A stretch of 53,462 nt of DNA from Chloroflexota bacterium (lineage in GTDB: Bacteria > Chloroflexota > Dehalococcoidia > JACQUO01): contig JACQUO010000001.1 of assembly GCA_016210205.1 (NCBI GenBank), forward strand, positions 1-53,462, written 5' to 3'. Numbering within the stretch: the first letter of the stretch is position 1; every line of letters starts with the position of its first letter. Position numbers and translations under genes: made by a program. Of the stretch, positions 1 to 2,794 are shown one piece after another. The notes beneath the pieces are model-generated. The model worked only from the letters and a program-made list of their open reading frames with translations, was not told the DNA's origin and ran no database searches.

Positions 1-715
<715 letters not shown>

Positions 716-800
716 TCTTAGAGTCTACCCTTCAGTAACCTTCCACTATCCAGTTGTTAAAGTGCCCGCCCCCCCAAAAATCTCCCTCAGGGGGAACCCT

Positions 801-875: not shown

Positions 876-1658
876 TCAGGATACGGAGTCGATGCGGTAG
901 CGGACTACTCCCTGCGGGGCTGCCACCTCCACCACCTCCCCCACCCTTCGCCCCAAGAGAGCCTTCCCCAGCGGTGAAGCCAGGGATAGCTTGCCCTTGA
1001 GGAGGCTGGCCTCCTGGGTGGCCACCAGGGTATAGTCGGCGGCCTCCTGGGTCTCCAGCTCCAGGACCACCACGCGGCTCCCCTGGCCAATTTGGGACTC
1101 GGGGGCCTGTCCATCCTCAATGATGACGGCGTGTCGGAGGGTGGCCTCAAGATGGCGGATGCGAGACTCCACCTGGGCCTGGTGCTCCCGGGCTGCGTCC
1201 AGGGGCGCGTTCTCCCGGAAGTCTTTGTCGGCCCGGGCTCGGGCCACCTCCATGGCCAGATAGGGCCGCTGGGCTTTGAGGGTTGCCATCTGGGCATCCA
1301 GCTCCTGATGGCCCTGCCGCGTGAGCTTCACCGCCTCCACGTCTCGCTGGGCGACGCCGCTGGCCCGCCCACCTTTCTTGGGGCGGAGGTGGGGGGCCAG
1401 GCTCACGGAAATCAGCTTCTCTTTCTTGAGGTGGACAAAAAACTTCTTCAGGGGAGACAGCCGTTGCTCCTGGTCCGCTACGGAGATCCCCAGGCCCTCG
1501 GCGTAGCCGGCCACCTGGGGCGCTGTGAGCTCCAGAAGAGGACGGTCCCCCCCGAACCAGTGCAGGAACTTGTTCACCTCCTGTTGGCTGGTCTGTCGCT
1601 GGGAGGGCGGCAGGGCGGCCAGGTAGCGGGCCGCGGCCTCCGCCAGGGTGAGGGACAA
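876..1658 (-). CDS. GreA/GreB-type transcription elongation factor with N-terminal integrase-like SAM domain
   Basis: 260 aa. Residues about 110-260 are a GreA: a coiled coil whose tip reads KDFRENAPLDAARE, keeping the acidic Asp and Glu that position Mg2+ in the RNA polymerase secondary channel, followed by the FKBP-like C-terminal domain. GreA rescues backtracked polymerase by stimulating transcript cleavage. Residues 1-95 are extra: a helical segment resembling the core-binding (SAM-like) domain of tyrosine recombinases, with no catalytic recombinase domain. The start is TTG at 1658, preceded by AAGGAGG at a spacing of about 6 nt. A strong promoter lies at 1691-1719. The gene lies directly upstream of, and parallel to, the 16S gene. 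Normal GreA is about 158 aa, so this is a clear fusion. Confidence 0.88.
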   Translation of the reverse strand: MSLTLAEAAARYLAALPPSQRQTSQQEVNKFLHWFGGDRPLLELTAPQVAGYAEGLGISVADQEQRLSPLKKFFVHLKKEKLISVSLAPHLRPKKGGRASGVAQRDVEAVKLTRQGHQELDAQMATLKAQRPYLAMEVARARADKDFRENAPLDAAREHQAQVESRIRHLEATLRHAVIIEDGQAPESQIGQGSRVVVLELETQEAADYTLVATQEASLLKGKLSLASPLGKALLGRRVGEVVEVAAPQGVVRYRIDSVS

Positions 1659-1690
1659 AGCTTGCCTCCTTGTCCGTAGAGATGAGCTTC

Positions 1691-1746: not shown

Positions 1747-1797
1747 TAGAATACGGGCATGAGCCTTTCAGTCTCGCTCCCAGATGAACAGCGCTAG
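1747..1797 (+). other. Possible leaderless leader peptide upstream of the K+ channel gene
   Basis: TAGAAT at 1747-1752 could be a -10 box, although no good -35 is seen. An ATG at 1759, where transcription would begin, opens a 12-codon ORF (MSLSVSLPDEQR) whose TAG overlaps the channel's first codons. The channel ATG at 1784 has no Shine-Dalgarno sequence, so translational coupling from this mini-ORF is conceivable. This is inference. Confidence 0.3.
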
Positions 1798-2794
1798 CAA
1801 CACCAGATGGGGTATTCTGCTCCTGGTTCTCATCCTGGCGGTGGGCACCGCTGGGTATGTGCTCATCGAGGGCTGGCCCATCTTCGATGCCTTTTGGATG
1901 GCCCTGATAACCATCACCACCGTTGGCTACGGGGAGGTGCATCCCCTTTCTCCAGCGGGGCGGCTTTTCAGCGCCTTGCTCATCGTGGGCGGGGTGGGAG
2001 GAGCCTTATACACCCTCAACGGAATTGTGCAGTATGTCGTCGAAGGTCAAATGAAGGGCACCTTCGGGAGGCGTCGCATGCAGGAGCGCATCAACCAGCT
2101 CAAGGACCACTACATCCTCTGTGGCTATGGGCGGGTGGGACAGGAGATTGCTGCCTTGTTCCAGGGCGAGGGGGTTCCCTTCCTGGTGGTGGAGAGCGAT
2201 GAGGGAGCCGTGGCCCTGGCAACCAAGGACGGCCGGCTCTATCTTCAGGGGGATGCTGCCCAGGACGCCGTCCTCCAGGCCGCGGGCATCGAGCGGGCGC
2301 GGTGCCTGGTGGCCGCTGTGGGCGGCGACGCCGACAACACCTTCATCACCCTCACCGCCCGGGGTCTCAACCCCCGCCTCTTCGTCGTGGCCCGGGGCGA
2401 CGGCCCTGGCGCCGAGGGCAAGCTCCGGCGGGCCGGCGCCGACCGGGTCATCCTGCCCCACAGCCTGGGGGGAAGGCGCATGGCCATGCTGGCCCTTCAC
2501 CCCACGGTGGTGGACTTCATCGACACCATCACCATGAGCCTGGGCCAGGAGTGGCGGGTGGAGGACCTGGCGGTGCCAGCATCCTCGCCCCTGGCCGGGC
2601 TCACCCTGGCGGAGGGCCAGAAGGCGCTGGGAGGGGTGATGGTGGTGGCGGTGAAAAAGGGGGAAGGGCAGCTCCTGCCCAACCCGCCCGCCGAGACCAG
2701 GCTGGAGGCAGGAGACAAGCTGGTGATGCTGGGCTCCAAGGAGCAGTTCCGAGCTCTGGAAGCCAGCCTCACGGGCGGGAGGCGCGTCCCCTGA
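1784..2794 (+). CDS. Ligand-gated (RCK) potassium channel, TrkA-N/TrkA-C
   Basis: 336 aa inner-membrane K+ channel subunit. Residues 10-28 form TM1, the pore helix leads to the selectivity filter TVGYG (46-50), and TM2 follows at about 59-78. The cytosolic RCK part begins with a Rossmann glycine motif (GYGRVG, about residue 112) and ends in a TrkA-C ligand domain (about 255-330). This is the MthK/Kch architecture, in which NAD(H) or a nucleotide bound to RCK gates the pore. No Shine-Dalgarno sequence precedes the ATG. The stop overlaps the presumed CTG start of the next gene (CTGA), so the two are likely translationally coupled. Confidence 0.9.
   Translation: MNSASNTRWGILLLVLILAVGTAGYVLIEGWPIFDAFWMALITITTVGYGEVHPLSPAGRLFSALLIVGGVGGALYTLNGIVQYVVEGQMKGTFGRRRMQERINQLKDHYILCGYGRVGQEIAALFQGEGVPFLVVESDEGAVALATKDGRLYLQGDAAQDAVLQAAGIERARCLVAAVGGDADNTFITLTARGLNPRLFVVARGDGPGAEGKLRRAGADRVILPHSLGGRRMAMLALHPTVVDFIDTITMSLGQEWRVEDLAVPASSPLAGLTLAEGQKALGGVMVVAVKKGEGQLLPNPPAETRLEAGDKLVMLGSKEQFRALEASLTGGRRVP

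Follow-up and report, generated by a model that had tools for sequence, protein, structure and literature searches.

Gre factors are, to our knowledge, composed of a coiled coil and a globular domain and have no DNA-binding domain of their own. Phage integrases grip DNA with the core-binding domain, whose second and last long helices face the DNA in recombinases. MrpR is presumably a regulator built on the recombinase fold, and we know of no MrpR or YopR protein that is joined to a polymerase-channel factor. The role of the acid pair D41/E44 at the tip of the GreA coiled coil has been described (PMC7527559), and HelD is reported to pair a secondary-channel coiled coil resembling that of Gre with another arm, placed in the main channel, which helps to dislodge DNA (PMC7749165). 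In the open-licence literature searched, no publication was recognised on the fusion of a recombinase-type domain with GreA described here or on its front domain.

The window, that is, the whole analysed stretch of 53,462 nucleotides from a Chloroflexota genome of the class Dehalococcoidia, carries on its minus strand at 876..1658 a GreA fusion gene predicted from the open reading frame listing to encode 260 amino acids plus a stop, an assignment that also draws on Pfam and on relatives with identical architecture. The start codon is TTG (1656-1658, minus), and an AAGGAGG resembling a ribosome-binding site was read off the sequence 6 bases 5' of it (1665..1671, minus). The protein has about 95 additional residues at its N-terminus, ahead of a complete GreA. 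A chance fusion or a mis-called start was considered and rejected, as the matches to relatives cover this N-terminal domain as well and the site before the TTG is a good candidate for ribosome binding.

The front domain comprises residues 1-95 (1374..1658, minus), delimited by models, PDB comparison, hhalign and profile search, and has modelled helices at residues 5-15, 18-35, 46-54, and 60-79. It is followed by a linker of residues 96-110 (1329..1373, minus) that is of low confidence by pLDDT and poorly conserved by identity, and then by the Gre coiled-coil domain, residues 111-180 (1119..1328, minus), with modelled helices at 114-129, 131-143, and 151-175, and the Gre C-terminal domain, residues 181-260 (879..1118, minus). 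Pfam places GreA_GreB_N (PF03449) on residues 111-179 with 61.9 bits against a cut-off of 24.5 and GreA_GreB (PF01272) on residues 186-259 with 71.9 bits against a cut-off of 26.9. The Gre part aligned to E. coli GreA (1grj) over residues 108-257 in Foldseek (TMt 0.83). The tip acids D146 (1221..1223, minus) and E149 (1212..1214, minus) align with E. coli D41 and E44, respectively, in the alignment to 1grj, and all 81 fused proteins read keep both. The original prediction had described an otherwise normal GreA with intact tip acids; the acids are borne out throughout, and the normality nearly so, except that the protein misses the NCBIfam GreA cut-offs (NF001263, 134.5 bits against 145; TIGR01462, 129.4 against 139) and is by those models a divergent GreA member. 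The full-protein model reached a pTM of only 0.48, with pLDDT below 50 at residues 97-107, so the placement of the front domain relative to Gre is not fixed by the model.

Next in line on the same strand of the window lies the 5' part of a 16S rRNA gene (1..716, minus; Rfam RF00177), which is cut by the contig edge. That the fusion gene sits beside the 16S gene thus holds for the window, but it does not hold as a conserved feature: blastn of window positions 1-716 against 80 fusion loci, many of them short and ended by contig edges, gave one match (L050), over positions 1-531 of that locus and about 5.5 kb from the fused gene rather than adjacent to it. The 16S linkage was accordingly dropped as a feature, and the neighbour is incidental. 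No conserved gene partner was found across the 80 loci, the commonest neighbour cluster being an FAD-dependent reductase-like family (named from sequence) that lies upstream on the same strand in 23 of 80. The divergent neighbour in the window (1784-2794) reads by eye as a potassium-channel/TrkA-type protein, and there are genes further on that read by eye as leucine-pathway-like.

The front domain is, by homology and predicted fold, a tyrosine-recombinase core-binding (SAM-like) domain. Its structure was modelled from 38 relatives (pLDDT 86.8, pTM 0.78), and the first 11 Foldseek rows obtained with this model were recombinase or integrase domains at a probability of 0.99-1.00, with a weak best E-value of 0.012. 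Structural re-alignment against 192 chains gave, among the best 50, integrases and recombinases plus YopR and MrpR in rows 1-42 (Z 11.9 to 5.2), after which Z fell from 5.2 to 4.2 at row 43. YopR and MrpR are taken here to have the recombinase fold, and 2kob, whose title names no function, and a few Cre entries in the same list were likewise assumed to be of recombinase type. Among these rows, Z was 11.9 for 3nrw (rmsd 2.3 over 94), 11.4 for lambda Int 1z1b (rmsd 4.0 over 99), and 10.4 for XerD 1a0p (rmsd 2.2 over 83). At the level of profiles, 81 front domains were compared in hhalign with the core-binding domains of 24 recombinases, which were those with a readable catalytic motif from 30 integrase loci in 21 genomes; the probability was 96.5 and the score 54 over 96 columns. 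None of 100 column shuffles scored above 17.3, and the other comparisons gave 9.2 (profile reversed), 9.9 (Gre coiled coil), and 20.8 (catalytic part of the recombinases taken as target).

The least biased identity test was a profile of the front domain only (38 rows) searched across 151 phylum genomes. All 37 places with E below 1e-14 were known fused-Gre places, and 22 weaker matches (E 5e-8 to 1e-3) followed, of which one is itself a fusion (G176) and one (G014:C3) was also found by the integrase search. The remaining 20 were scanned, and 19 carry Phage_integrase while one (L294) carries Phage_int_SAM_1 and MerR; with 19 recombinases and one recombinase-like protein among the 20, the front domain is homologous to recombinase core-binding domains. 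An unrelated helical bundle is thereby rejected by Foldseek, structural re-alignment, hhalign, and the profile search alike, and the recombinase-like SAM domain of about 95 residues proposed in the original prediction is upheld by the structure model, the profile-profile score, and the profile-search matches.

The Pfam scan of the window protein assigned no family within residues 1-107 alone, a sub-threshold LTXXQ match beginning at 108, and at E up to 1 it matched neither a SAM model nor Phage_integrase. At the same limit, Phage_int_SAM_4 was matched in six and SAM_5 in one of 30 class relatives (best 0.0058), and sub-threshold SAM matches were obtained in four of 10 further members; no Pfam SAM model reached its gathering score in any of the members scanned. 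A PDB search with the front-domain profile alone was also weak, with the recombinase-like 2kd1 second at E 0.3 and an unrelated chain first at 0.14. Machine annotation of the domain may exist in SUPERFAMILY or InterPro. The recombinase catalytic domain is absent from the fused protein, and Gre follows the front domain. The L294 protein (L294:435-1538, G161) has Phage_int_SAM_1 at its front and a MerR helix-turn-helix at 243-306, does not match Phage_integrase at E up to 0.001, and is likely another reuse of the core-binding domain in regulation.

The domain search across Chloroflexota found the fusion conserved and not confined to the genome of the window. It is present in 38 of 41 class genomes, the window's own included, and absent from G004, G006, and G009; in 37 of the 40 others, matches span the front domain into Gre at 34-49% identity, one of them part-length (G035, stopping at residue 191). 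In a 400-genome draw from the phylum, where a fusion was called from a match running from the front domain into Gre (G272 being part-length and G260 a further case), it was found in 52 of 54 class genomes, being absent from G211 and G242, and in at least 40 of 346 genomes of other classes. The five class genomes without the fusion indicate that members of the class can live without it, unless their assemblies are incomplete. In one lineage (G176, G206, G260, G330, and G358, with G283 similar), the end of the front domain is more recombinase-like, as in 'DPM..VRLPR', and these six are nevertheless matched by the front-domain profile at 1e-11 to 2.5e-4. A scan of genome contigs gave 475 relatives, not all of them known to carry the fusion; the 80 listed bear titles of Chloroflexi/Chloroflexota or Dehalococcoidia/-ales/-aceae/Dehalococcoides. 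A tblastn search of 50,697 phage records matched nine, none covering 80% of the query, and the eight matches listed begin at residue 105 or later, which is the Gre part. A phage origin of the whole fusion was rejected on these phage records, as the matches listed fall in the Gre part.

In a tree built from 106 Gre domains, of which 38 are fused and 68 short, the fused label needs two changes against about 31 in shuffles, and it still needs two when the tip columns and two long-branch rows (G226 and G256) are dropped, leaving 104 rows. A single origin of the fusion is allowed by the tree, not proved. Most short copies with a changed tip fall together in one group (39 rows, SH-aLRT 95) separate from the fused ones. 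Mean pairwise identity among 81 fused proteins is 47% in the front domain, 48% in the Gre C-terminal domain, 58% in the coiled coil, and 28% at residues 89-110. Within the front domain, W34 (79/81), G36 (81/81), and K/R71 (81/81) are nearly invariant, and R21, K30, R33, and R39 are also conserved in the fused family. The clustering of fused proteins on the Gre tree implies that the front domain has been kept through deep divergence.

The fused and the short Gre proteins of these genomes differ at the coiled-coil tip. The acid pair is missing from every unfused Gre copy read in 36 of the 38 genomes that bear a fusion. Within the class, where one short copy was read for each of 19 such genomes, none keeps D/E; 17 have no acid at either position, usually G or S and N, and the exceptions are D/D in G007 and S/D in G025. 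Beyond the copies read, G007 has two more, G141 one more, and G149 one weak one. In other classes, 17 of 19 fusion-bearing genomes have no read short copy that combines an acid at the first position with E at the second, the read copies being all D/D in 12 and otherwise A/E, S/E, or D/G with E/D. The D/D copies of these 12 could retain some cleavage activity. The pattern is broken by G226 and G256, in each of which one short Gre carries D at the first and E at the second tip position; these two copies sit on long branches of the tree. All 16 fusion-free genomes of other classes, picked from the best-scoring short matches plus a further genome set and not at random, have at least one unfused Gre in which E at the second tip position is combined with D or E at the first, including a D/E copy in 12 and E/E only in four. 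Among class genomes without the fusion, G006 has D/D, D/D, and G/E copies, G004 has D/D, and G211 has a D/E coiled coil. A scan of 20 class genomes for PF03449 found nothing but the fusion in 17 and two matches each in G000, G019, and G203; the 17 include three Dehalococcoides-like genomes, each a single contig (1.36-1.52 Mb) and each with 19-28 dehalogenase matches, of which some are pieces of one gene. The short Gre nearly always lacks the acid pair while the fusion keeps it, which makes the fused protein the probable cleavage-competent Gre in these lineages; this added finding, drawn from comparison of tip residues, would make the case more than a domain fusion.

Several other Gre forms were encountered on the way. 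The class short Gre proteins (L185, at G000:C21:10497-10940, and L186-L203) have lost the acid pair in 19 of 19, with KEMGGTENNAEYEDAK as the typical sequence, and would be Gfh-like, possibly inhibitory factors. L250, a 138-aa frame in G211:C21, has a Gre coiled coil with intact tip acids and a cysteine-containing front ('CPGC...C'), and no Gre C-terminal domain is visible in that frame. One genome among the 17 with a single PF03449 match (G112) has an extra match to the Gre C-terminal domain only, at G112:C1:1647703-1647930 inside a 1604-residue frame, which is perhaps like the TPR-GreA/B-C conflict proteins described in PMC8195603. A Gre match at G062:C1:2199663-2199872 lies in a 960-aa open frame with tip E/E, and the frame may be a mere stop-free stretch. 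Several genomes of family f76 (such as G288, at G288:C23:21858-22355 in a frame of 447 aa, and G220, G088, G335, and G422) have Gre matches in frames of 437-468 aa, perhaps with another long N-terminal extension.

The charge of the front domain was compared with that of the 24 recombinase domains. Residues 1-95 have a mean net charge of +4.2 against +3.8 in the recombinases, where the range of -5 to +12 means that charge alone says little on DNA binding. The helical body (residues 1-88) contributes a mean of only +1.4, the rest of the +4.2 coming from the tail residues 92, 94, and 95, and the linker region at residues 89-110 has a mean net charge of +5.3. In the profile alignment, whose register was verified against the hydrophobic pattern (correlation 0.68 at shift 0 and at most 0.28 at others), basic positions 65, 66, 71, and 95 are common to the fused front domains and the recombinases, the window protein itself having Q at 65 and its conserved basic residues at 66, 71, 79, 92, 94, and 95, and K/R frequency per column correlates at r = 0.46 over 96 columns. 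By the same alignment, the recombinase polar positions T/S20, Y24, and T/S62 are replaced in the fused domain, so specific DNA recognition of the recombinase kind is unlikely. Non-specific binding of duplex DNA appears the most likely role of the front domain, with docking to a protein as the main rival, and DNA anchoring is plausible as judged from residue patterns, although the basic domain could instead bind RNA or the polymerase.

We consider it moderately probable that the protein is a lineage-specific GreA in which a recombinase domain, a flexible basic linker, and a complete GreA are combined into a cleavage factor whose front domain holds DNA. By known Gre biology, the coiled coil would reach into a backtracked RNA polymerase through the secondary channel and the pair of tip acids would trigger RNA cleavage, which would make the fused protein the transcript-cleavage factor of the cell. 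The front domain would, by known Gre structure, be attached at the coiled-coil base and lie outside the channel. With less certainty, it may grip duplex DNA close to the polymerase in a sequence-independent manner, using basic residues in its tail and last long helix, and such holding may keep the factor near transcribing complexes or select them. A wider reading, offered tentatively, is that two paralogues have divided the work, a DNA-tethered cleaving GreA on one side and on the other a tip-less short Gre acting as a non-cleaving, Gfh1-like competitor for the secondary channel, with the Dehalococcoides-like genomes having kept only the tethered one.

The domain may also have kept the recombinase fold in order to bind a protein, docking on RNA polymerase or another factor and so raising the affinity or specificity of Gre. 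We regard this as rather unlikely, although the loss of T20, Y24, and T62 alongside the conservation of R21, K30, R33, W34, G36, and R39 in the fused family speaks for it, as do the protein contacts that recombinase core-binding domains also make in synapses; the conserved basic positions 65, 66, 71, and 95 match the DNA-binding recombinases, and the linker is basic too, which argues for DNA instead. It is improbable that the domain is a regulator in cis that dimerises or folds back to block the coiled coil until DNA or another signal frees it: the flexible linker and the low inter-domain confidence would permit such an arrangement, but no predicted contact supports it. Lysine acetylation at K17 of the D. 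mccartyi GreA cbdbA743 in stationary phase, reported in PMC7918482, would favour control in cis if it fell on the front domain. The corresponding residue, counted from the Met nearest the front domain, is N, N, and S in the Dehalococcoides-like G013, G059, and G087, so the acetylation site is not placeable on the front domain and was set aside as evidence on it. That the domain is a functionless remnant of a chance fusion is very improbable; its failure to reach the Pfam cut-offs speaks for this, but its identity equals that of the Gre C-terminal domain, W34, G36, and K/R71 hardly vary, and the fused proteins cluster on the Gre tree at two label changes against about 31 in shuffles.

With a deeply conserved Gre that carries the DNA-gripping domain of recombinases and has kept the cleavage acids, which its unfused relative has nearly always lost as a pair, a coupling of transcript cleavage to DNA holding near the polymerase would become directly testable. 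If the division between two paralogues is true, the cleavage factor would sense or hold DNA while working on the RNA end. For annotation, the short, ordinary-looking GreA of these genomes is probably not the cleavage factor, and the longer one probably is. The fusion would also add to the cases in which the transcription machinery has taken over a recombinase domain.

Compared with known systems, the fusion resembles E. coli GreA (1grj) in its coiled coil with the D41/E44 pair and in its Gre C-terminal domain, while the E. coli protein has no front domain and reads 'HGDLKENAEY' at the tip where the window protein reads 'DKDFRENAPL'. The core-binding domains of XerD and lambda Int (Phage_int_SAM_1/4/5) share with it the fold, the helix order, the basic pattern of the last long helix, and a similar end of the domain, 'NL..H(L/I)(K/R).KK'-like in the fusion and 'NP...i..PK' in recombinases, but the fusion has no catalytic domain and has not kept T/S, Y, and T/S at 20, 24, and 62. 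MrpR and YopR of SPbeta are matched by the front domain at Z of about 8, the 8a0a entry titling MrpR a 'master regulator'. Longer proteins with Gre parts are also represented by the NCBI models PRK06330 and PRK14720 and by the TPR-GreA/B-C-PIN conflict proteins, which likewise hold a Gre C-terminal domain; the partners named in the available part of that source are TPR, PIN, and effector domains, with no recombinase domain or coiled coil mentioned there (PMC8195603).

The short companion Gre has possible parallels in Gfh1, reported to be a Gre paralogue that inhibits cleavage, and in the archaeal TFS4, reported to be a cleavage-factor paralogue turned inhibitor; the companion is likewise a paralogue, and its tip is changed. 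HelD of Bacillus and Mycobacterium, like the fusion as proposed here, joins a Gre-like coiled coil and a second DNA-acting element in one protein. HelD is an NTPase that dismantles complexes, whereas the fusion is a small Gre with intact cleavage acids and would be a far simpler case.
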